Source of the DNA: Haloarcula japonica DSM 6131
Lineage (GTDB): Archaea > Halobacteriota > Halobacteria > Halobacteriales > Haloarculaceae
NCBI RefSeq assembly: GCF_000336635.1
Contig: NZ_AOLY01000007.1
Span: 185,413 to 249,412, forward strand
DNA: 64,000 nucleotides
Direction of reading: 5' to 3'
The notes under the pieces are model-generated. The model did no database searches, was not told the origin of the DNA, and saw only the letters and a list, made by a program, of their open reading frames with translations. Positions 1,195-41,125 of this stretch are shown here, one piece after another (within the stretch, counting starts at the first letter, position 1; every line of letters starts with the position of its first letter). A program made the position numbers and the translations under genes.

Positions 1195-2850
1195 ATGCCA
1201 GGTGGTGCACCACTCAACCTCCGGTCATTCCTGTGGCGTGGCGAGAACGTGTTCCCCGACAGCGAGATCGTCTCGCGGACGCACCAGGGGATTCACCGAT
1301 ACACGATAGCGGAGTACGCCGAACGCGTACGAAAGCTGGCCTCAGCCCTCGAACAGGCAGGCATCGAACGCGGCGACAGAGTTGGGACGTTCGCCTGGAA
1401 CAACCACTGGCATCAGGAGGCCTACTACGGCGTCGCTTGCATGGGCGCACAGGTCCACATGATTAACCTCCTCTTGCCCGATGAGCACATCCAGCACATC
1501 GTAGCCGACGCCGAGGACGAAATTCTCATCGTCGACCCCGTCATGCTAGAAAAGCTCGAAGGGGCGTACGATGAGGAGGCGTTCGCCTCTGTCGAGCAGT
1601 ACATCGTGATGGGCGACACCGTCCCCGAAACGTCGCTGGAGCCAGTCGTCGATTACGAATCGTTCATCGCCGACGGCGACCCCGACTACTCCTTCCCGCA
1701 ACTGCCCGAGGACCAGCCGGCGGGGATGTGCTACACGTCCGGGACAACAGGCAAGCCGAAAGGCGTCGAGTACACCCAAAAGATGTACTGGACACAGGTC
1801 ATGTCGCTGATGACTAGCCAGGCCGGTATCAAGACCGACGACGTGGAACTGACGTACGTTCCGATGTTCCACGTCAGCGGCTGGTGTCGCCCGTTCACGA
1901 CCATCGCTGCCGGAGCCAAGACGGTCCTCCCCGGGCCGAATCCGTCGGCCGAGGATCTAGCAAAGCTCATCGAAGAAGAGGACGTGACCGTCTCCGCAGC
2001 GGTCCCGACTGTCTTCATGGACCTGCTGGAGTACGCCCGTGAGACCGACGTGGACTTCTCCTCGGTTCGGTACTTCACCAGCGGCGGGTCCGCGACGCCG
2101 CGGTCATTGATGGAGGATTACAAGGAGGAGTTCGACGTTGACCTCATCTCCGGCTACGGCATGACCGAAACGTCACCGGTCACGCACGCCTACGAGCCCA
2201 AGCCCGGAATGACGGACCTGCCGGAGGAGGAACTGTTCGACCTGCGGAGCCACTCAGCGGGGCTCCCGATTGCCGGGCTGGAGTTCAAAGTCGTCAACAC
2301 CGACGGCGAGGAAGTGCCCTGGGACGGCGAGTCGCTGGGCGAACTCTGGATGCGTGGCCCGTGGGTCACACAAGAGTACTACAACGCCCCCGATGCGACC
2401 GAACAGGCCGTCACCGACGACGGCTGGCTCAAGACCGGTGACATTGTCCGGGTGAGTCCGGAGGGGTACGTCGACGTGGTCGACCGGATGGACGACCTCG
2501 TCAAGAGCGGCGGCGAGTGGATCGCCAGCGTCGAGGTCGAAAACGCCGTCATGGGTCACGATGAGGTCGTCGAAGCCGCAGTTGTCCCGGTCCCCCACGA
2601 GCGGTGGGACGAACGCCCCGCTGCGTTCGTCGTCACACGGGATACCGTAGCTGACGAAGCCGCGCTGCGTCAGGAGATCAAAGACCTCGTCGCCGAGTCA
2701 TATCCGTCATGGTGGGTCCCCGACGCCATCCGTCTGGTCGACGGGATTCCCAAGGGCGCGACCGGGAAATTCTCCAAGCAGACGCTCCGTGACGAGTACG
2801 TCGACGAGTCGATCATCGAAACTGTCGCCGAGAACGCCCCGGCAACGTAA
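1195..2850 (+). CDS. Acyl-CoA synthetase (AMP-forming, long/medium-chain type)
   Basis: A 551-residue member of the ANL adenylate-forming superfamily that would activate a carboxylic acid to its CoA thioester through an acyl-AMP. The P-loop YTSGTTGKPKG is near residue 178, the adenine-binding GYGMTETSP near 320, the hinge region DGWLKTGDI near 409, and the catalytic C-terminal lysine lies in the ATGKFSK stretch near 521. Length is normal for the fatty-acyl-CoA ligase branch. I chose the ATG at 1195 because the following residues (PGGAPLNLRSFLW) start the usual domain and a TATA-like box lies 28 bases upstream; an extension to 1126 is open but atypical. It is divergent from the crotonase gene and is followed by an alcohol dehydrogenase gene. 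Substrate chain length is not predictable. Confidence 0.92.
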   Translation: MPGGAPLNLRSFLWRGENVFPDSEIVSRTHQGIHRYTIAEYAERVRKLASALEQAGIERGDRVGTFAWNNHWHQEAYYGVACMGAQVHMINLLLPDEHIQHIVADAEDEILIVDPVMLEKLEGAYDEEAFASVEQYIVMGDTVPETSLEPVVDYESFIADGDPDYSFPQLPEDQPAGMCYTSGTTGKPKGVEYTQKMYWTQVMSLMTSQAGIKTDDVELTYVPMFHVSGWCRPFTTIAAGAKTVLPGPNPSAEDLAKLIEEEDVTVSAAVPTVFMDLLEYARETDVDFSSVRYFTSGGSATPRSLMEDYKEEFDVDLISGYGMTETSPVTHAYEPKPGMTDLPEEELFDLRSHSAGLPIAGLEFKVVNTDGEEVPWDGESLGELWMRGPWVTQEYYNAPDATEQAVTDDGWLKTGDIVRVSPEGYVDVVDRMDDLVKSGGEWIASVEVENAVMGHDEVVEAAVVPVPHERWDERPAAFVVTRDTVADEAALRQEIKDLVAESYPSWWVPDAIRLVDGIPKGATGKFSKQTLRDEYVDESIIETVAENAPAT

Positions 2851-2966
2851 CTCGGCCGAAACGTGGCGGAGCGTTCTGGCTGACAGGCACCGTATCGACG
2901 GCAGCGTTCTCGATACCGTACGTCTACCGTCACCGAGCCAGCCACAACAAGTCCAGTCGCGGATAG

Positions 2967-2975
2967 GTATTTATG
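2967..2975 (+). promoter_or_regulatory. Candidate TATA box for the alcohol dehydrogenase gene
   Basis: GTATTTATG lies about 27 bases before the ATG at 2998, the normal distance for a leaderless archaeal promoter. Confidence 0.5.
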
Positions 2976-2997
2976 ATAGCCCTGTGATGATTGTGGT

Positions 2998-4059
2998 ATG
3001 CGAGCAGCTGTCATTGAGGAGCACGGCGAACCGCTCACGATTCAGGACGTGCCCTATCCGGAGCCCCAACCGGATCAGGTCATCATCGAGACTGAAGCCT
3101 GCGGGGTCTGCCGGAGCGACTGGCACGCCTGGCAGGGAGACTGGGAGTGGTTCGGCATCCAGACCGGCCCCGGGCAGATTCTGGGCCACGAGCCGGCCGG
3201 GGTCGTCGCCGACGTGGGTGCGGACGTCGAACAGTTCTCCGAGGGGGACCGCGTCACAGTACCGTTCCACCTCGGCGACGGGTCGTGTCAGTACTGCCAG
3301 CGCGGGCACGCCAACATCTGCGAGACGTCGATGCCGCTTGGCTTCCTCGACGCCGCACCGGGGGCGTTTGCCGAGGCGTTCCCTGTCCGCGAAGCCGACT
3401 TCAATTGTGTCACGCTGCCGGACGCCGTCGACTTCACTGAAATGGCTGGGCTCGGCTGTCGGTTCATGACGGCGTACCACGCGCTGACCGACCGGGCGGA
3501 TCTCAGGCCGGGCGACGCCGTCGCGATCCACGGCTGTGGCGGCGTTGGCCTCTCGGCAGTCCATATCGCCGATGCGCTGGGGGCCGAACCGATTGCGGTC
3601 GACGTACAGGACAGCAAGCTCGACCGGGCGCGGGACCTCGGCGCAGCGACGACAATCAACGCTGCCGAGGTGGACAACGTCCCCGGCGAGGTTCACGCAG
3701 TCACGGACGGCGGGGCCGATGTGGCTATCGACGCGCTGGGTATCGCGGAAACGTGTCGCAACGCTGTCGGCTCGCTGGGCAAGCAGGGCACCCACGTGCA
3801 GGTCGGACTCACGACTGACGACGAGGCCGGGGAAATATCCCTCCCGGTTGATACGATGACCCTGCAGGAAATCGACTTCCACGGGTCTTACGGGATGCCG
3901 CCGATCCGCTACGACGAACTGTTCCGTCTCATCGACGCCGGGACGCTCGAACCCTCCAAGATCGTCGGGGAGACGCTCCCGCTCGACGACGTGCCGGCGA
4001 CCCTCTCGTCGATGGGCGAGTACGAGACGGTCGGTATCCCCGTCATCGACGAGTTCTGA
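2998..4059 (+). CDS. Zinc-dependent alcohol dehydrogenase (MDR family)
   Basis: A 353-residue medium-chain dehydrogenase. The GroES-like catalytic domain has the zinc site with Cys35/Cys38 (CGVCRSD) and His64-Glu65 (GHEPAGVV). The structural-zinc lobe reads D94-x2-C97-x2-C100-x7-C108, with Asp replacing the usual first Cys; Asp at that position is seen in some halophilic MDR enzymes. The Rossmann domain carries GCGGVGLSAVHIA near residue 180, and an acidic residue at the end of the second strand (IAVDVQ) suggests NAD. It would oxidise an alcohol to an aldehyde, fitting the aldehyde dehydrogenase gene 0.9 kb further on. Substrate unknown. Confidence 0.9.
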   Translation: MRAAVIEEHGEPLTIQDVPYPEPQPDQVIIETEACGVCRSDWHAWQGDWEWFGIQTGPGQILGHEPAGVVADVGADVEQFSEGDRVTVPFHLGDGSCQYCQRGHANICETSMPLGFLDAAPGAFAEAFPVREADFNCVTLPDAVDFTEMAGLGCRFMTAYHALTDRADLRPGDAVAIHGCGGVGLSAVHIADALGAEPIAVDVQDSKLDRARDLGAATTINAAEVDNVPGEVHAVTDGGADVAIDALGIAETCRNAVGSLGKQGTHVQVGLTTDDEAGEISLPVDTMTLQEIDFHGSYGMPPIRYDELFRLIDAGTLEPSKIVGETLPLDDVPATLSSMGEYETVGIPVIDEF

Positions 4060-4092
4060 GAGACACCGGCGCTGCGCTGTGGTCGTCGGTCC

Positions 4093-4908
4093 CTACGAAC
4101 GGTTCGCTGCCAGCCAGTCAATGGCGAAGTCTACCATCGGCTGTTGGTCGAGGAGTTTCGACTCGCCGACGCCGACAGTCCCCGTCTCGACGGCGCTGGG
4201 GTGGGCACGCTCGAACGCATCACCGCAGGCCTGAAAATCCGTATCGGTGAGTTCGATATCGGTCCAGTTGCACCATTCGCGCTCGCCCTCGACAAGTACG
4301 GCGCTGGCGTGTCTGGTCGTGTCGGTATCGATATCGGCGCGGTACTCGGCGAGGTGCAGCGAGGTGTTCGTCGCATGTGACGTTCCGAGAAACAGGACTC
4401 TCCCATCACGGTCGTAGACTTCTGACAGCGGTGATGATTCCCCGAGCGAGTAATCGTAGGCGTGACCATCAGTGATGGTCTCGGCGTCAGTACCCCACGC
4501 GGCGAAGGAATGCTGTGGGTGCTTACTCCGGTAGACAGCTGGATACGTCCGAAAACACTCGGCGATTGCACCCATTCCCTGCGTTGGCGTCACTGCTGGT
4601 CGGTATGGTGGGAACTGCTCGCGGATCGTGTCGGCCCACGAGTCCGGGACTGGTGGGTTCGACATATTGTCGGGGTCCCTGTTGCCGGGTGAGTGTGTTG
4701 GCATCACTACGGTCCCGCGCTCGGTGACGACACGCTGCAGGGCGTCAACCACCGCTGGTGCGCCACCACAGACCCATCCCAGTTCGGACAGCGACCCGTG
4801 GACCAGTACTGTTTCCCCGCTTTCGAGACCCAGCGTCCGGAGGTCGTGTGCTATCGAATCCACGGTGACCGGTTCCGCTGAACGATCGCTTGGGCGCGGC
4901 GTGTCCAT
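4093..4908 (-). CDS. AAC(3)-family N-acetyltransferase (antibiotic_NAT fold)
   Basis: A 271-residue protein with the hallmarks of the aminoglycoside 3-N-acetyltransferase family: an N-terminal VLVHGSLSELGWVCGGA segment, VVMPTHSPG near residue 90, KHPQHSFAAWG near 130, and a GESSPLSEVYDRDGRVLFLG motif that usually forms the acetyl-CoA/active-site loop. The family transfers acetyl from acetyl-CoA to an amine. Homologues are common on archaeal and bacterial chromosomes with no antibiotic role, and the composition matches the neighbours, so I would not call it an acquired resistance gene. The native amine is unknown. Confidence 0.85.
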   Translation of the reverse strand: MDTPRPSDRSAEPVTVDSIAHDLRTLGLESGETVLVHGSLSELGWVCGGAPAVVDALQRVVTERGTVVMPTHSPGNRDPDNMSNPPVPDSWADTIREQFPPYRPAVTPTQGMGAIAECFRTYPAVYRSKHPQHSFAAWGTDAETITDGHAYDYSLGESSPLSEVYDRDGRVLFLGTSHATNTSLHLAEYRADIDTDTTRHASAVLVEGEREWCNWTDIELTDTDFQACGDAFERAHPSAVETGTVGVGESKLLDQQPMVDFAIDWLAANRS

Positions 4909-5002
4909 GAGAGACGATAGCCGAAAGCGGGCATAAGTTTCGTGTTCCCAGCGACACCGAGCCGCTGTTGTGGGTGCCTACTGTGGCCCCGAATCTACTG
5001 GC

Positions 5003-6472
5003 TCAGAGCAGCTGGTAGTCGCGCTCTTCGTGCTGGACGGAGATCCACTTGGTCTCGGTCAGTTCGTCCATGATCCACTCGCCGTTGTACCGGCCGATCC
5101 CGGAGTCTTTCATCCCGCCGAACGGGGCGTTGGGTTCGTCCTGAATCGGGTGGTCGTTGACGTGGACCATCCCGGCGTCGATCTGGTCGGCGATGGACCG
5201 ACCGTGTTCGACATCACCGCTGTACACGCCTGCAGCGAGGCCGTACTCGGTGTCGTTGGCGAGTTCGACGGCTTCCTCGTCGGACTCGAAGGGGATGACC
5301 GGGGCGACGGGGCCGAAGTGCTCGTTACACGCCGCGGACATATCGTTGGTACACCCCGAGAGGACGGTCGGTTCGAGGAACAGGTCCTCCGCCTCGCCGC
5401 CCGTCTCCAGCGTCGCGCCGGCATCGACAGTCTGCTCGATGAATGAGGTGAGCTGTTCGACCTGACTCTCGTTGATGATCGGACCGAACTCTACGTCCTC
5501 GTCAAGCGGGTTCCCGATAGTCAGCGACTCAGCGTGCTCGACGAGTTTCTCGACGTACTCGTCGTAGACGTCCTCGTGGACGAGATGGCGATTGATCGAG
5601 ATACACACCTGTCCCTGGTGGCCGAACGCGCCGACGGAGCCGGCTCTGGCGGCTGCCTCGATGTCAGCGTCCTCGGTAACGACGAACGGTCCGTTCCCAC
5701 CGAGTTCGAGCGCCGGGAGGGCGAGCGCATTCCCAGCCTGACTGGCCACGGACCTGCCGACTGCCGTCGAGCCGGTGAACGACATCACGCGGGCGGCGGG
5801 GTGGCCGGCCATCCGGTCGCCGATATCGGAGCCGTGGCCCGTGACGACGTTGACGGCACCGTCCGGGAGGCCGGCCTCCTCAGCGATGTCGGCCAGCAGG
5901 AGCCCGCCGGTAATCGGCGTGTCCGTCGCAGGCTTGATGACGACGGTGTTCCCCAGCGCGAGCGCGGGACCGAGCGCCCGCGTCGTGAGGTGCAGCGGGA
6001 AGTTCCACGGCGAAATAATCCCGACGACGCCAGCGGGTTCGCGGACGATGTGGTGGTCCTTGTCCTCGTGATACATCGAGTCACGGACCTCCTCTTCCGG
6101 CGGGACCATCTCCAGCGCGCTCTGGAAGTCCGCCATGGCGAAGTTGGCCTCGGCAGTTGCTTTGGCCCGGACACTACCCGACTCCGTTGCGAGCAGTTCG
6201 ACGATCTCGTCCAGTCGCTCCTGCATCACCCCGATCATCGACTGGACGTACTCGTTGCGCTCCTCGCGCGACAGCGCCGCCCAGTCGGACTGGGCCGCTT
6301 CGGCGGCCTGATAGGCGTCGTTGACATCCCCCTCCGTTCCGGCGGGTACCGCCGCGATTTCCCCGCCCGTCGCGGGGTTGGTCACCGGTATCGTCTCAGA
6401 TGCTTCGGCGTCACGCCACTCGCCGTCGATGTACAGTCGGCTCCACGCCGTCTGGCTATCTGGTTGTGACAT
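5003..6472 (-). CDS. NAD(P)-dependent aldehyde dehydrogenase
   Basis: A 489-residue full-length ALDH that oxidises an aldehyde to a carboxylate. Visible landmarks are the Asn of the oxyanion hole in ISPWNFPLHLT near residue 155, the general-base motif LELGGNGPF near 255, the catalytic Cys in GHQGQVCISINRH near 290, and the C-terminal PFGGMKDSGIGRYNG. It starts at the ATG complementary to 6470-6472 and is divergent from the acyl-CoA dehydrogenase gene across about 80 bases. Together with the alcohol dehydrogenase and acyl-CoA synthetase it could complete an alcohol to aldehyde to acid to acyl-CoA route. The specific aldehyde is not predictable. Confidence 0.92.
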   Translation of the reverse strand: MSQPDSQTAWSRLYIDGEWRDAEASETIPVTNPATGGEIAAVPAGTEGDVNDAYQAAEAAQSDWAALSREERNEYVQSMIGVMQERLDEIVELLATESGSVRAKATAEANFAMADFQSALEMVPPEEEVRDSMYHEDKDHHIVREPAGVVGIISPWNFPLHLTTRALGPALALGNTVVIKPATDTPITGGLLLADIAEEAGLPDGAVNVVTGHGSDIGDRMAGHPAARVMSFTGSTAVGRSVASQAGNALALPALELGGNGPFVVTEDADIEAAARAGSVGAFGHQGQVCISINRHLVHEDVYDEYVEKLVEHAESLTIGNPLDEDVEFGPIINESQVEQLTSFIEQTVDAGATLETGGEAEDLFLEPTVLSGCTNDMSAACNEHFGPVAPVIPFESDEEAVELANDTEYGLAAGVYSGDVEHGRSIADQIDAGMVHVNDHPIQDEPNAPFGGMKDSGIGRYNGEWIMDELTETKWISVQHEERDYQLL

Positions 6473-34216: not shown

Positions 34217-36454
34217 ATGACTGCACAGGCTGGTACGGAGACCGCACCGGTGGTCCCCGCACCGATGCCACCGGACGCCGCCGACGCCTGGTACGCGCCG
34301 GACGTTCGTGAGCAAGACGAGGTGTATCCGGGCGTCGTCGTGACCGTCCGACGGGGACCGAATGGGTTCCGGTACGATGTCCGTGATCCAGTACTTTCAG
34401 CGGCAGAGGCCGACGCACTGTCGACTGTCGAGTTACACTTCGAAGGTGCGAACATCGAGCGACCACGGACGCGTGAGGGGGCGGTGGAGCGAATGAACGG
34501 GGGGTTCGACGCGAAACACCGTCGGGTCATCGACCGACTGATCGACGCGTCGCCAGCGAGTCGTCGTCGAATCGAGTACCACGCGCTCTCGTCACTGGCG
34601 TGTTTCGACGACCTGACTCCGTACGCGCTGGATTCCCGCATCGACGTCGCAGACGTAACTGACGACGGCGTCGTCGTCCATACCGACGATTACGCCCCGG
34701 CCGAGACTGACCTCGGACCGGACCCGGCGTATCTCAACCGATTCGCGAGCGAACGTGTCGAGCGCCACACTGTCCGGTTCCAGGGCTTCGAAATTCCGGT
34801 CGTCGTCTACCGCGAGCATCTCCTCGGTGCCGACCCGTTCACGACGAAGTACGCGGTTCGAGAGCCGGACCTGCTCCCGGGCGACGAGCAACTCATCGAG
34901 GTGTGTAAAGAGCGCGTCTGGGAGACCGGAGTCAACGGCGTCGTCGAAGACCGCGTCGAGTTCGTCCGGGAGCGCACTCGCTCGCTCCTTGCCCGGCAGC
35001 TAACCGTCCGTAACACGACCGAATGGGTCGACGCCGCCCGCTACCGGGTCCGGTCGGCGCTGGCCGAACTCGATCTGGCCGTGCCGCCGGTCGACCATCG
35101 GTTTGCTGACGACCGTCTCGACGACCTGCTGTACTACGTCCTTCGGGACCTCGTCGGCTACGGCAAGCTCACCGTCCCGATCCGGGACCACACGCTGGAG
35201 GACATCGAGGCCAACCGGATCGACGAACGCGTGAAGGTCCTCCCGCGCGCTAACCTCGGCCACGACGGCCGCGTACCGACCAATCTCGCCTTCGATTCGG
35301 AGGCGGCGTTCGTCAACGTCGTTACGCAGTTGGCCGCCGACGATGGTGTTGAACTCAACGCCTCGAACCCGAGCGCGAAAGTCAACATCGACCCCGACGG
35401 AGACGGCCTCCACGACGCCGACGATACCATCCGCTGTGCCGTTGCCCTGCCGACTATCAGCGAGGGCGGGCCACACATCTCTATCCGGAAACAGTCGGGC
35501 GATGCGATGACACCGGTCGACCTGGTCCAGCGTGACTCGCTGCCGACGGAACTGGTCGCGCTGCTGTGGCTCCTGTACGAATCCCACGGTGTCGTCCTCT
35601 TCTCGGGACCAACTGGAGCCGGCAAAACGACCCTTATGAATGCCCATATGCCGTTCATCCCGTATCGGGATCGTCCCATCAGTATCGACGAAGGGTCACG
35701 CGAGGTCCGGATTCCCCACGAGACCGGTGTTTCGCTCACCACTCGGGACCACGAACGGGACCACCGCCGCGTGACGATGGCCGACCTGATGACGCAGTGT
35801 AACTATCTGAATCCGGATGTTGAGGTCATCGCTGAGATCAACACGGCCGCGTCCTTCGAAACGTTCGCTGAAACGCTCAACACTGGCCACGGCGTTATCG
35901 GGACGACCCACGCCGACGACATCGAATCGCTTGTCAACCGCGTTATCGAGAAGGGCGTGCCGACATACCTGCTCAAAGAGATCGACCTCGTCGTGTTCCC
36001 TCGGCACGTCGATGGGGAGCGCTACGTCGGCGAGGTAGTCGAGTTCGTCGATGATCCGTCTGTCGTCGAAGGTTCGAACGACCGGAGCGGGACGATACAT
36101 AAGGACGGGACCACTATCCACTGGAACTCCGTCTGCTGGCGACGGCCCGACGGGAGCTTCGAACTCGCCTACGACCACCCGCAGTTCGGCGACGACCAAC
36201 GGCAGGTCGACACTGGTATTTTCGACCGACTCTCGGCCCTCCGTGATGAACCGGTCTCGGCCGTCGAGGACGCGTTCCACCGTCGCCACCGTTACGTCCA
36301 GTACCTCGTTCAGGAGGGACTGACTGATTTCGACGACCTGTTCGGCGTTTTGGCCGACCTGGAGACGAACGAGGCAGCGACGGTCGAGCGACTGCGGCGA
36401 CAGGCCGGCACCCCCGACAATCCGCACTTGGAGGTCAGTACGGGTGACGACTGA
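34217..36454 (+). CDS. Type II/IV secretion system (pilus assembly) ATPase, VirB11/PilB type
   Basis: A 745-residue cytoplasmic hexameric ATPase that powers assembly of type IV pilus-like filaments. The N-terminal half is the archaeal PilB-specific region; the ATPase core has Walker A (SGPTGAGKTTLM, Lys470), an Asp box, SIDEGSREVRIPHE, and a Walker B/His-box stretch VEVIAEINTAASFETFAETLNTGHGVIGTTHAD in part near 540-575. Its stop overlaps the start of the membrane platform gene by 11 bases, the first of a series of overlaps in this operon. Archaellum motor FlaI is related, but no archaellum genes accompany it. Confidence 0.92.
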   Translation: MTAQAGTETAPVVPAPMPPDAADAWYAPDVREQDEVYPGVVVTVRRGPNGFRYDVRDPVLSAAEADALSTVELHFEGANIERPRTREGAVERMNGGFDAKHRRVIDRLIDASPASRRRIEYHALSSLACFDDLTPYALDSRIDVADVTDDGVVVHTDDYAPAETDLGPDPAYLNRFASERVERHTVRFQGFEIPVVVYREHLLGADPFTTKYAVREPDLLPGDEQLIEVCKERVWETGVNGVVEDRVEFVRERTRSLLARQLTVRNTTEWVDAARYRVRSALAELDLAVPPVDHRFADDRLDDLLYYVLRDLVGYGKLTVPIRDHTLEDIEANRIDERVKVLPRANLGHDGRVPTNLAFDSEAAFVNVVTQLAADDGVELNASNPSAKVNIDPDGDGLHDADDTIRCAVALPTISEGGPHISIRKQSGDAMTPVDLVQRDSLPTELVALLWLLYESHGVVLFSGPTGAGKTTLMNAHMPFIPYRDRPISIDEGSREVRIPHETGVSLTTRDHERDHRRVTMADLMTQCNYLNPDVEVIAEINTAASFETFAETLNTGHGVIGTTHADDIESLVNRVIEKGVPTYLLKEIDLVVFPRHVDGERYVGEVVEFVDDPSVVEGSNDRSGTIHKDGTTIHWNSVCWRRPDGSFELAYDHPQFGDDQRQVDTGIFDRLSALRDEPVSAVEDAFHRRHRYVQYLVQEGLTDFDDLFGVLADLETNEAATVERLRRQAGTPDNPHLEVSTGDD

Positions 36455-38336
36455 GGCCGGCGGGACGCTCGGCTTGCTCGACCGGGGCCTGTACGCCCTG
36501 TTCGCCCACCATGCCGAGGACGACCGCCACGCAAGCACGCGTGACCGCTATCGGGCCGCCTATCCAAGCGCCGGGTTCGGCGTTTACGTCTCCAGAGTGT
36601 ACGGACTTTCGTGGCTAGCGCTCTGTGTCGGTGTCGTCGGAACTGCGACGATAGCGATGCTCGTACCGTCGGGGACCTTCGACTCGTTCGTCGCGGTGCT
36701 CCAGCAGAGCCTCCCGGTGATTAACCGACTGGCGCTCCCAGAAGTGCCTCGGCTCCTCGTGGCTACTGTCCTCGGAGCTGTCGCTGGACTTACGCTCAAA
36801 CGGGGCGTATTCGTCGCCGGGAACCGGTATCTCTCGTGGGTCGCCAGCGCACGGCGAGCGGACATCGCAGCCACGCTCCCCGGCGCAGTCCGATACCTCA
36901 GAGTCCTCGCCTCCGGAACGCACGACCGACGCGAGATGCTACGCGCCGTTGCCGAACAGGACGCCTACGGCGAGACGGCGGTCGCCTTCCGGCGCGCACT
37001 CAATCAGGGGATTCTCACCGGCAGTCTCGATACCGGTATCGAGCGGGTCGCCAGCGAGACGCCTTCACGGGACCTGCTTGCGCCGTTTCTGCTGAAGTTC
37101 CGCGAACACGCGAACCAGAGCGCTGAGGCGCTGGAGGGATATCTGGAGATGGAGGGGCGCTTGCTCTCACACGAGCAGAGCCGACAGCACGAACGGGCGA
37201 CCGGCTATCTCGAACTCCTCGCGGAACTGTTCGTCGTGTTGCTGGTGTTGCCCGCGCTCGTCGTGCTCATCGTCACTGTGATGGGTATTCTCGCGCCCGG
37301 CCTCTCCGAGCCCGTTGCGACACCGCTGGGCGAGACGACTGTCCGTGCCATCGTCGTCTACGGGAGTGCGGCGTTCGTGATGGCTACCGGTCTGCTGGCG
37401 GCCTTCGTCGTTGCTACGCTCCGACCGCGGAACACAGCCGCCCCGAATTACAGCCTGCCGGACAGCCCCGTTGCGATATTCGCGACAATTCCTTCGAACC
37501 CTGCGAGCGCGCTCCTCGCCTGCGCGCCCCTGGGTGCGGTCGTCGCGGCAGGCCTCTGGTCACTGGGCTACCGTCCGGTCAACGTCGCGCTCCTCTCGTA
37601 TGCCACCGTCGGCGTTCCCGTCGGTGTGGTAACGGTCCGCCGGGCCAGAGCGGACGACGCGAAGGATCGAGAGATTCAGGACTTCGTTCACGCTGTCGCC
37701 GGCCACGTCGCGCTGGGCCGCCCGTTTCCAGAGGCGGTCCGACGTGTCGCCGACGACGTGGAACTCGGGGCGCTCGCCAGCGATGTCCAGTCACTCGCGT
37801 TCACACTGTCGCTCGGTGATAGCCCCGGCGACGCCGCGGCTGACAGGCGGGCCGCGGCACTCGATCAGTTCGTCGACCGCGTCGGTACGCCGATGGCTGA
37901 ACAGACCATCGGGCTGGTCGTCGGCGCATTGGATACGGGCAGCGATGCGGAGGACGTGTTCGAGACGCTCCAGACAGAGATCGGGCAACTCTACCATCTC
38001 CGGAAATCCATCCGCTCAGCCCTGCTCGTCTACGTCGCCGTCGGTTGGACGACGGCGCTGCTCGTCATCGGTATCACCGTTGCCGTCAACGTCTACGTCC
38101 TCGATAGCTTCGCGCAACTGTCGTCAGTTTCGGGCGGTGCGAACATCGCCTTCGACCCGAGCGCGATCAAACCCGTCCGGGAGCAACACCGGTTCTATGT
38201 CGTCACGCAGGCGACGATGCTGGCCTGTGGCTGGTTCGCCGGCACAGCGAGTCGCGGGACGTACGAGGCTCTGTTACACTCCTCGGGATTGGTACTCATC
38301 GCCTACGTCGTTTTCGCGGGGGCTGGTCTGATTTGA
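36444..38336 (+). CDS. Type II secretion system F-family membrane platform protein (PilC/TadC type)
   Basis: A 630-residue polytopic membrane protein, starting at GTG within the end of the ATPase gene. Two T2SSF modules are visible, each a helical cytoplasmic domain (LPGAVRYLRVLASGTHDRREMLRAVAEQ in part near 145; DFVHAVAGHVALGRPFPEAVRR near 415) followed by hydrophobic segments (FVVLLVLPALVVLIVTVMGILAP; LLVYVAVGWTTALLVIGITVAV in part). It anchors the ATPase and the growing filament in the membrane. It overlaps the following pilin-like gene by four bases (TTGA). Confidence 0.9.
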   Translation: MTTEAGGTLGLLDRGLYALFAHHAEDDRHASTRDRYRAAYPSAGFGVYVSRVYGLSWLALCVGVVGTATIAMLVPSGTFDSFVAVLQQSLPVINRLALPEVPRLLVATVLGAVAGLTLKRGVFVAGNRYLSWVASARRADIAATLPGAVRYLRVLASGTHDRREMLRAVAEQDAYGETAVAFRRALNQGILTGSLDTGIERVASETPSRDLLAPFLLKFREHANQSAEALEGYLEMEGRLLSHEQSRQHERATGYLELLAELFVVLLVLPALVVLIVTVMGILAPGLSEPVATPLGETTVRAIVVYGSAAFVMATGLLAAFVVATLRPRNTAAPNYSLPDSPVAIFATIPSNPASALLACAPLGAVVAAGLWSLGYRPVNVALLSYATVGVPVGVVTVRRARADDAKDREIQDFVHAVAGHVALGRPFPEAVRRVADDVELGALASDVQSLAFTLSLGDSPGDAAADRRAAALDQFVDRVGTPMAEQTIGLVVGALDTGSDAEDVFETLQTEIGQLYHLRKSIRSALLVYVAVGWTTALLVIGITVAVNVYVLDSFAQLSSVSGGANIAFDPSAIKPVREQHRFYVVTQATMLACGWFAGTASRGTYEALLHSSGLVLIAYVVFAGAGLI

Positions 38337-39058
38337 TTGGCAACACTGACGCGCAGTCCCACGTAGTCGGCGTGGTGCTGTTGCTCGGCCTCACCGTCGT
38401 TGCACTCGGTGGACTGACGGCTGTCGTCGGGACTGTCGTCGACGGGCACACGGCGACTGCCGACGAGGCCCGCGTCGCCAACACGTTCGAGACGGCGTTC
38501 CGGCCGGTCGAGCGGACGGGCCACCAGACGGCCCGTGTTCGGTTTACTGAAGGGCAGTTGACCACAGTGGAGCGAGAGCTCCGAGTCCGCAACGACTCCG
38601 GCGTCCAGCGAACGGTCTCCATCGACGCAGTGATGTACGACTCCGGTGACAGCCGCGTTCGCTTTCTCGCCGGGAGCGTCGTCCGCGGAACGGCGAGGAA
38701 TGCGTGGCTCGAAACTGATCCGCCAGTGACGGCGACGCGGGACGACACGGCCGTCATCGTCGGCGCGCCGCTCGTCAACGCCAGCGGCGGCACAGTGTCC
38801 GGGACGGGCGGCGTCTCCGCACGCATCCGCCAGAACGTCAGCCACGAGCGCGAACGGCTCCCGCCCGACAACTACAGCGTGGCTATCGAGACGGAAACGC
38901 CCCGTCCGTTCACCGAGTACTTCCAGCGGGTTGGAGCAACGACGCGAGTCAAAGACATCGACGGCGACGGTGTCCAGAGCGTCGTAGCAACGTTCCCGGG
39001 CCGCCAGACGCTGTATCTCGTCCGCCACAACATGCGGACGGAGGTGGGGCATGGATAA
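38333..39058 (+). CDS. Pilin-like protein 1 of the pilus operon (archaeal type IV pilin N-terminus)
   Basis: A 241-residue protein starting at TTG inside the previous stop codon. The N-terminus NTDA-QSHVVGVVLLLGLTVVA is like an archaeal prepilin: a short polar leader, Ala at the likely cleavage position, Gln at +1 and then a hydrophobic helix. The remainder is extracellular, beta-rich and Asn/Thr-rich with possible N-glycosylation sequons (NASG, NVSH). It is the largest of the five small operon proteins and the best candidate for a major or tip subunit; this is inference. Confidence 0.8.
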   Translation: MIGNTDAQSHVVGVVLLLGLTVVALGGLTAVVGTVVDGHTATADEARVANTFETAFRPVERTGHQTARVRFTEGQLTTVERELRVRNDSGVQRTVSIDAVMYDSGDSRVRFLAGSVVRGTARNAWLETDPPVTATRDDTAVIVGAPLVNASGGTVSGTGGVSARIRQNVSHERERLPPDNYSVAIETETPRPFTEYFQRVGATTRVKDIDGDGVQSVVATFPGRQTLYLVRHNMRTEVGHG

Positions 39059-39497
39059 CCGCGCACTCAGCACTGTCGTCGAGAAACTGCTGAGCATGGG
39101 TCTCGTGCTGCTGTACATCGGATTAGTGACGACTACGCTGTACGGTGGCACTGTCCCGGCGTATCAATCCGCTGTCGGGACGGAACTCGGCGACAGAACG
39201 CTCGCCGAAGCGACGGCCCGCGTCGAACAGGCGATTCCGCCGAATGCCCGGGCTGTCTCGGCAACTGTTCGGGTATCGCTGCCGGAGACCATCGACGGGG
39301 CAGGGTACAGCATCCGGACTGACGGACCTGCGCTCGTCCTCGACCATCCCGACCCAGAAATCGGCGGTCGGACACAGCCGCTGTTGCCTGATAGAGTCGA
39401 TACCCTCGCAGGCGAGTGGCAGAGCGGCAGTCCAACCGTGGTCACGGTTTCCGGAACGCGAGGGAGCGTGACGGTGACACTGGAGGAGGAGCGATGA
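39051..39497 (+). CDS. Pilin-like protein 2 of the pilus operon
   Basis: A 148-residue protein with leader MDNRA and then LSTVVEKLLSMGLVLLYIGL, matching Arg-Ala before a putative prepilin peptidase site. The hydrophobic helix spans residues 6-35. A Glu lies early in the helix, as in bacterial type IV pilins, where it guides assembly. The rest is a small beta domain ending in TVTLEEER. It overlaps the preceding gene by 8 bases and the next by 4, suggesting translational coupling. I know it as a haloarchaea-type domain of unknown function rather than a named pilin. Confidence 0.78.
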   Translation: MDNRALSTVVEKLLSMGLVLLYIGLVTTTLYGGTVPAYQSAVGTELGDRTLAEATARVEQAIPPNARAVSATVRVSLPETIDGAGYSIRTDGPALVLDHPDPEIGGRTQPLLPDRVDTLAGEWQSGSPTVVTVSGTRGSVTVTLEEER

Positions 39498-40198
39498 CCG
39501 TGCCGAGCCGTCGCTGTGACAATTCCACACGCGCACAGACGTCGCTACCGGCGCTGGGAATCGCGCTCGTGTTACTGACCGTCGTCACCGGACTGGGGGT
39601 CGCCATGGCCGACACCGCGATTGCCGGCGCGGACAGGGCCCCCGATGAGCGGCGGGTCGCCGCCGCTATCGCTGACCAGCTCGTCGCGGGGGACGGTCCA
39701 CTGGCCGCCCGGAGCAACGTCCTCAACCAATCTCGGGTGGACGACTTCGACCAGTCCGCTCTAGAGGAGAACGCACCGCCGGCCAGCGAGTATGCGGTCA
39801 GCGTCAAATTGGCTGACGAGGAGATAGCACGTAGCGGCACGGTGCAGGGCGGTACGCGAATCAGTCGTCTCATCGTGGTCGAGGCGCGGGAACCACGAAC
39901 ACTCACGCCCGACCTGACGACGACCGACGCGGTGACGCTCCCTCGCCGGAGTGCGCGGGCGACAGTGACAATCGACCCGCCCACCGGTACGTCTGTCTGG
40001 ACGGTCCGCGCTAACGACCGGGTCGTCCTCCATAACAGAAGCGGGCTGGACGGCAGCTACGAGGTTTCGCTGGTGCCCTACGAGACGACGGAGCTTCGCT
40101 TCCAGCGCGCCGGCCGACTCGAATCCGGCAACGTGACCGTAGAGTACGATGCCCCGCGGTCGACGAAGGAAACCCTGGTGGTGACCGTTGATGCGTAG
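39494..40198 (+). CDS. Pilin-like protein 3 of the pilus operon
   Basis: A 234-residue protein. A longer polar leader (TVPSRRCDNSTRA) precedes QTSLPALGIALVLLTVVTGL, again Arg-Ala then Gln at the expected cleavage site. After the helix an extracellular domain shows repeated beta strands (YAVSVKLADEEIARSGTVQ, WTVRANDRVVLHNRSGLDGS), with NQS and NRS sequons. The ATG at 39494 overlaps the upstream stop by 4 bases (ATGA); a longer frame to 39416 would lie inside the previous gene and is unlikely. Confidence 0.78.
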   Translation: MTVPSRRCDNSTRAQTSLPALGIALVLLTVVTGLGVAMADTAIAGADRAPDERRVAAAIADQLVAGDGPLAARSNVLNQSRVDDFDQSALEENAPPASEYAVSVKLADEEIARSGTVQGGTRISRLIVVEAREPRTLTPDLTTTDAVTLPRRSARATVTIDPPTGTSVWTVRANDRVVLHNRSGLDGSYEVSLVPYETTELRFQRAGRLESGNVTVEYDAPRSTKETLVVTVDA

Positions 40199-40595
40199 AG
40201 CCCAGCTACCATTGTCGCTCGTGGAAGTTGCCCTCGGGACAGTGCTGATTCTCGGTGTCGCGCTCGGGTTTGTACTGGGGACGCCAGCACCGGATCGACA
40301 GGGACCACAGCTTGACGCCTATGCCTCGGACACGGCGACCCTCCTCGCTAACGACCCGCCGCGACATGACGGTGCGACGCGACTGCAGGAGGTCGTTTCG
40401 AGTCCAGCAGCCTTCGACCGGGAACAGGATGCACTTTCGAACCGGGTCGCCCGAATCCTGCCCGACAATGTCCTCTTCCGGGTCGAAACACCGCACGGCG
40501 CGGTCGGAACACCGACGCCACAGGGCGTCAGCACTGGGACCGCAACTGTACCGACGGGACACGGGAGTGTCCAAATCATCGTGTGGTACGCATGA
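40191..40595 (+). CDS. Pilin-like protein 4 of the pilus operon (pseudopilin-like)
   Basis: A 134-residue protein whose N-terminus MRRA-QLPLSLVEVALGTVLILGVALGF is strikingly like bacterial type IV pseudopilins (hydrophobic stretch with a Glu a few residues after cleavage). Arg-Ala precedes the likely processing site. The soluble part is short. It overlaps the previous gene by 8 bases and the next by 4. A minor-pilin role initiating filament assembly is an inference. Confidence 0.78.
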   Translation: MRRAQLPLSLVEVALGTVLILGVALGFVLGTPAPDRQGPQLDAYASDTATLLANDPPRHDGATRLQEVVSSPAAFDREQDALSNRVARILPDNVLFRVETPHGAVGTPTPQGVSTGTATVPTGHGSVQIIVWYA

Positions 40596-41125
40596 CCCGG
40601 CGCGGCCAGCTAGTCCTCGTTGCGGCCACGGTCGTGGCTGTTGCACTTGTCCCGATTCTCTTTGCGTCCCTCCAACTGGGCTATCACGACGACGTTCGGT
40701 CGACAGCCGATTACGACGACGATCCCTCGGCTGATGCGCTTCGGGTCCTTGAGCGAGCCGTCGCAACCGAGAGCGCATCCATCCCAAGCCAGTACGCTTG
40801 GTCAGCGAACGATTCGGCAGTGACGGCCGTTCGCACTGGACTGGAGCCTCAGATCGACCGTCTCCAGACGTCCCAAATCGAGGACGGTATCCACTACAAT
40901 ACAACCTACAACGGTACTGCGGCACGGAAGTGGAAAGACGCGAACTGTCCCTCCGGACCGGGCCGCCAGTTTGGGGTCTGCGTCGCCGACCGTGGCGTCG
41001 TCACTCAGGACCGCGTGGGCCGCACGCACGTTCTTGCTGTCGGCTTCGACGTGACGACGACGACCGAACGGGGCGAAACCACTGTCACCGTAGTTCTGGA
41101 AACCAGCGGTCGGTCATCGCGGTGA
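40592..41125 (+). CDS. Pilin-like protein 5 of the pilus operon
   Basis: A 177-residue protein beginning MTRRG-QLVLVAATVVAVALVPILF, a textbook archaeal class III signal (Arg-Arg-Gly, then Gln and a hydrophobic helix). Two Cys residues (CPSGPGRQFGVC) in the extracellular domain could form a disulfide, unusual within this operon. NDS and NTT sequons are present. It is the last gene of the operon, ending 57 bases before the convergent lipoprotein gene. Confidence 0.78.
   Translation: MTRRGQLVLVAATVVAVALVPILFASLQLGYHDDVRSTADYDDDPSADALRVLERAVATESASIPSQYAWSANDSAVTAVRTGLEPQIDRLQTSQIEDGIHYNTTYNGTAARKWKDANCPSGPGRQFGVCVADRGVVTQDRVGRTHVLAVGFDVTTTTERGETTVTVVLETSGRSSR

Follow-up and report, generated by a model that had tools for sequence, protein, structure and literature searches.

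Two haloarchaeal operons described previously are the closest relatives of the locus analysed here. In Haloferax volcanii, the pilB1-C1 operon comprises hvo_0620, hvo_0619, hvo_0618 and the genes that follow, and both an insertion in pilB1 and a deletion of pilB1-C1 cause an adhesion defect (Legerme and Pohlschroder 2019, PMC6491452). It is a mild defect, which pilB3-C3 can rescue; deletion of pilB3-C3 is not rescued by PilB1-C1 (PMC6491452). The pil-2 locus of Halobacterium salinarum R1 (OE1347R-OE1332R) spans 6.9 kb and contains seven co-transcribed ORFs, PilB and PilC followed by small genes, with three predicted prepilins and a distribution limited to haloarchaea (Losensky 2015, PMC4292770). 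Interruptions affect pilB2 and pilC2 in strains NRC-1 and R1, among them an in-frame stop in pilC2 of R1 (PMC4292770). In the archaeal ATPase tree, the halobacterial system falls within subclade 4C (Makarova 2016, PMC4858521; PMC6491452), for which the operon-type pilin arCOG06296 was proposed as the major pilin, and the pilins used by PilB3 are encoded in trans (PMC4858521).

The DNA studied here (the window, a stretch of 64,000 nucleotides) is of Haloarcula type, with named Haloarcula matches at 83-91% identity. The operon that it carries at positions 34217-41125 is already known: it is the Haloarcula ortholog of H. volcanii pilB1-C1 and, by description, of H. salinarum pil-2. As a test of identity, the start-codon primer published for H. 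volcanii pilB1 was sought in 391 haloarchaeal genomes. It occurred in four, all of one genus, to which we give the label Haloferax on the strength of the primer match itself. In the two primer-bearing genomes that we retrieved, the primer corresponds to the PilB start of a seven-gene operon with the same gene order as that of Haloarcula, and PilC overlaps the first pilin gene by 4 bases in both operons. The only difference is sequence divergence (63% identity for PilB, 55-56% for PilC and 33-45% for the pilins). Among the other ATPases in nine related genomes, pieces of the ortholog aside, identity to the window PilB does not exceed 35%. The likeness to pil-2 of H. salinarum R1, compared by description, extends to seven ORFs in the order PilB, PilC, small genes and to a length of 6.9 kb, whereas pil-2 was assigned three prepilins rather than five and has the stop in pilC2. 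To what was known, we add here the confinement of two pilin families (DUF7263 and DUF7262) to this operon type, two sister five-prepilin operons with three homologous pilin classes, and two invariant charged residues, Lys7 and Glu8.

Operon architecture and protein families

Seven plus-strand genes make up the operon:

34217-36454, plus strand: PilB-type secretion/assembly ATPase, 745 aa; Pfam T2SSE, E 6e-23
36444-38336, plus strand: PilC/TadC-type platform protein, 630 aa, GTG start; T2SSF in two stretches, E 4e-18
38333-39058, plus strand: predicted prepilin 1, DUF7289 (E 6e-52), 241 aa, TTG start, NTDA/QSHVVGV
39051-39497, plus strand: predicted prepilin 2, DUF7266 (E 5e-54), 148 aa, NRA/LSTVVEK
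39494-40198, plus strand: predicted prepilin 3, DUF7263 (E 4e-85), 234 aa, TRA/QTSLPALG
40191-40595, plus strand: predicted prepilin 4, DUF7262 (E 3e-57), 134 aa, RRA/QLPLSLVE
40592-41125, plus strand: predicted prepilin 5, DUF7261 (E 7e-69), 177 aa, RRG/QLVLVAA

Successive genes overlap by 11 (PilB/PilC), 4 (PilC/DUF7289), 8 (DUF7289/DUF7266), 4 (DUF7266/DUF7263), 8 (DUF7263/DUF7262) and 4 bases (DUF7262/DUF7261), the last two becoming 11 and 13 if DUF7262 starts at TTG 40188 and DUF7261 at GTG 40583. A preliminary description of this DNA had reported a seven-gene operon joined by overlaps of 4-11 bases, and its coordinates and overlaps hold on recomputation. Its assignment of an ATPase, a platform protein and five distinct prepilin-like subunits is likewise borne out by Pfam, which recognizes T2SSE, T2SSF and five separate families, each small protein matching one DUF family far above its cut-off (E 6e-52 to 4e-85). 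All seven frames are open. When compared with solved structures, PilB matched Archaeoglobus GspE2 first (2oap, E 8e-31), with CpaF and FlaI next, and its Walker A motif, GPTGAGKT at residue 464, is intact.

No small-protein subunit is duplicated inside the operon. Profile comparison of the five families with one another found no similarity above 20% probability, in keeping with the earlier impression that their soluble domains are mutually unrelated. The DUF7289 protein has a weak match to Pilin_N (E 4e-4, below cut-off). In the literature that we searched, there was no mention of DUF7289, DUF7266, DUF7263, DUF7262, DUF7261 or DUF7288 by name.

AF2 models of DUF7263 and DUF7262, built from 42-43 relatives, show an N-terminal helix and a beta-rich domain for DUF7263 (mean pLDDT 89.3), and helices with a four-stranded sheet for DUF7262 (mean pLDDT 86.8). 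In both models a helix at the N terminus precedes a domain with beta structure, a layout compatible with a pilin. Foldseek searches with both models against the PDB and viral structures gave no match at E <= 0.001, to a solved pilin or otherwise; PDB profile searches with DUF7263 and DUF7262, and a single-sequence PDB search with DUF7289, returned nothing or chance matches.

Prepilin leaders and charged helix residues

Leader sequences were compared across about 75 retrieved haloarchaeal loci (30 genome loci and 47 named loci, aligned), counts that are partly non-independent as some genomes were reached twice, once by each route. Positions P2-P1 read [R/D][A/G] with Gln at +1 in 72 of 74 DUF7289 proteins and in every DUF7263 (76/76), DUF7262 (77/77) and DUF7261 (76/76) protein. 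DUF7266 has R[A/G] at the predicted cleavage site in 75/75, followed mostly by V, L, M or A. All five families thus match the archaeal class III signal peptide pattern of a short leader, a charged residue plus Ala or Gly, and a hydrophobic helix, and the leader motifs written out in the preliminary description proved to be conserved in each family. As three unrelated ORFs in the window also pass the loose, unspecific motif, the case for prepilins rests on this conservation. The genome encodes a single Peptidase_A24 protein, as judged by Pfam.

Two charged residues stand out in the predicted N-terminal helices. DUF7262 has an invariant Glu at +8 after the predicted cleavage site (77/77), and DUF7266 has an invariant Lys at +7 (75/75, a count for which the site-finding pattern itself demanded Lys, although the one rejected sequence also has Lys); the Haloarcula DUF7266 protein has a Glu at +6. 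Bacterial pilins and pseudopilins carry a Glu at +5 of the mature protein. The early Glu noted previously is real, and invariant in DUF7262, but it lies at +8, and none of the five families has Glu as the +5 residue in the aligned loci.

Conservation, stray copies and sister operons

The order PilC-DUF7289-DUF7266-DUF7263-DUF7262-DUF7261 was unchanged in all 30 genome loci and in 44 of 47 named loci, spanning many genera; in the other three, one gene was fused or not called. Conservation of the five-gene order, proposed as a check in the preliminary description, is extensive. DUF7263 and DUF7262 were above cut-off in the same 45 of 116 genomes of the class, adjacent each time, and across these 116 genomes they are confined to this operon type. 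Paralogs in other pilin operons account for the presence of DUF7261, DUF7266 and DUF7289 in nearly every genome.

We looked for free-standing copies of the small genes, away from the ATPase and platform genes, and recovered only what seem to be truncated remnants, or paralogs from other pilus operons. Four genomes, which belong to a single genus, have strong DUF7261 matches unaccompanied by other system-specific genes; each of these matches lacks at least the leader, and in two of the four genomes it comes after a LAGLIDADG/Hint ORF. One further genome (L043, contig 3, 696-9542) carries a partial DUF7263 gene, together with DUF7262 and DUF7261, downstream of two DNA methyltransferase genes, with no PilB, PilC, DUF7289 or DUF7266 match in the retrieved stretch. 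These L043 and DUF7261 copies look like remnants, and we did not count them against the pilus interpretation.

At L039 6084-7961 and L040 7801-9615, a DUF7261 domain with no prepilin leader comes after a LAGLIDADG/Hint-like ORF, from which a single in-frame stop separates it. In Halomicrobium (L007-L009, L052), the operon carries an insertion between DUF7262 and DUF7261, an antisense ORF of some 190 aa with an apparent membrane segment.

The Haloarcula genome holds two further five-prepilin sets, arranged DUF7287-DUF7288-DUF7261-like-DUF7266-DUF7289; in one case the set immediately follows a further PilB-PilC pair. These haloarchaeal clade 2 pilin operons resemble the window operon in having five prepilin genes, and their DUF7289, DUF7266 and DUF7261 classes are homologous to those of the window (98.9, 96.6 and 86.8% probability by profile comparison). 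They differ in gene order and in having DUF7287 and DUF7288 in place of DUF7263 and DUF7262. The profile link between DUF7263 and DUF7287 is weak (73% probability), and profile comparison detected no partner for DUF7262 in the sister sets. An early acidic helix residue recurs there, as Glu6 in DUF7288 (32/32) and Asp5 in DUF7287 (30/31), and the sister-set DUF7266 proteins are without Lys7. The three pilin classes common to both operon types fit the hybrid-origin model of Makarova (PMC4858521). Beside a sister five-pilin operon in the same genome (contig 9, L037 254-3913), two proteins that combine DUF7289 with DUF7305 are encoded, each roughly 600 aa long; one of the two has a weak bactofilin-like match.

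Function of the operon and alternative readings

Sequence comparisons make it probable that the Haloarcula operon encodes a multi-subunit type IV adhesion pilus of the pilB1-C1/pil-2 type in subclade 4C. This reading is supported by what PilB and PilC match in Pfam and the PDB, the conserved leaders, the fixed gene order, the single Peptidase_A24, the primer-confirmed orthology with Haloferax and the adhesion defect of the Haloferax mutants. A PibD-type prepilin peptidase (the Peptidase_A24 protein, encoded elsewhere in the genome) would remove the short leaders after [R/D][A/G]. PilB would then hydrolyse ATP and, acting through PilC, lift the mature pilins from the membrane. The hydrophobic N-terminal helices of these pilins would pack together as a single filament, presumably with co-assembly of all five. 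Probably one or two of them serve as major subunits and the others as minor ones, which would initiate or cap the filament; the filament would be used in surface or cell adhesion. Set against this reading are the failure of Foldseek to find a solved pilin for DUF7263 or DUF7262, the three prepilins alone credited to pil-2 (PMC4292770), and the mildness and pilB3-C3 rescue of the H. volcanii defect (PMC6491452).

The number of subunits also invites a comparison with T2SS pseudopilins GspG-H-I-J-K and competence pilins ComGC-GG, each of which has five non-redundant subunits, one ATPase and one platform protein. Such a composition, with no subunit duplicated in the operon, is what would be expected of a short secretion pseudopilus in which the five proteins act as a GspG-H-I-J-K-like piston, driving proteins or DNA through the surface of the cell. 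We consider this improbable. The comparison is one of how the systems work only; profile, sequence and Foldseek searches detected no sequence or fold match between the five proteins and pseudopilins, and the Haloarcula Glu is at +8 rather than +5. The flanking genes that we read contain no evident secreted substrate or outer secretion part. The preliminary description had favoured a filament or secretion pseudopilus of five subunits over a single-pilin adhesion pilus. The contrast with an adhesion pilus is not supported, given the contribution of the Haloferax pilB1-C1 ortholog to adhesion (PMC6491452) and the want of any linked secretion component.

Whether the operon supplies its own major pilin bears on a further alternative, in which the five proteins are minor pilins only, forming an initiating or tip complex, and the bulk of the filament comes from PilA-type pilins encoded elsewhere. 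Seven Pilin_N genes above cut-off lie elsewhere in the genome and could provide such a subunit; pilB3-C3 can replace pilB1-C1 in Haloferax adhesion (PMC6491452), and PilB3 uses pilins in trans (PMC4858521). Yet the failure of PilB1-C1 to rescue a pilB3-C3 deletion implies that PilB1-C1 apparently builds no PilA1-6 pili, and an operon-type pilin, arCOG06296, has been proposed as the major one (PMC4858521). On balance, a minor-pilin role for all five is possible but rather unlikely. Somewhat more doubtful still is the idea that an obligate core of five pilin subunits, equivalent in function to GspG-K or ComGC-GG, is common to haloarchaeal T4P operons. On this idea, DUF7262 Glu8 and DUF7266 Lys7 of the 4C type would form a pair within the core of the filament and so contribute to setting the subunit order, a pairing suggested by the invariance of both residues.

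The adhesion-pilus reading places five Pfam families whose function was unknown (DUF7289, DUF7266, DUF7263, DUF7262 and DUF7261) in an adhesion-pilus operon that has already been described. It predicts that every one of the five small proteins is a processed pilin, compared with three in the H. salinarum study. Given the partial one-to-one match to the clade 2 pilin operon, which is widespread, it can be tested in Haloferax volcanii which subunits are major and which are minor.

Decay or silencing of the operon in this lineage is extremely unlikely, given that the window copy has seven open frames and an intact ATPase motif and that PilB is also intact in close Haloarcula relatives. What speaks for it comes from other genomes. 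In four named haloarchaeal genomes (L053, L077, L080 and L088), PilB is split or has a stop, with PilC and the five pilin genes intact, and in three others (L058, L062 and L075) PilB is open but is separated from PilC by other genes; errors in draft assemblies could account for such breaks. Comparable cases in H. salinarum are the pilB2 gene of NRC-1, which carries an insertion, and, more broadly, the interrupted pilB2 and pilC2 of NRC-1 and R1 (PMC4292770). In Haloarcula argentinensis DSM 12282 (L046, approximately 2775-6415), the pilus operon retains PilB residues 1-431 and PilC residues 180-630, and a HamA-HamB pair of the Hachiman anti-phage defence system takes the place of the missing 3' part of PilB and 5' part of PilC. 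Viruses commonly use pili as receptors, and the presence of a Hachiman pair within a pilus operon may therefore merit a look.
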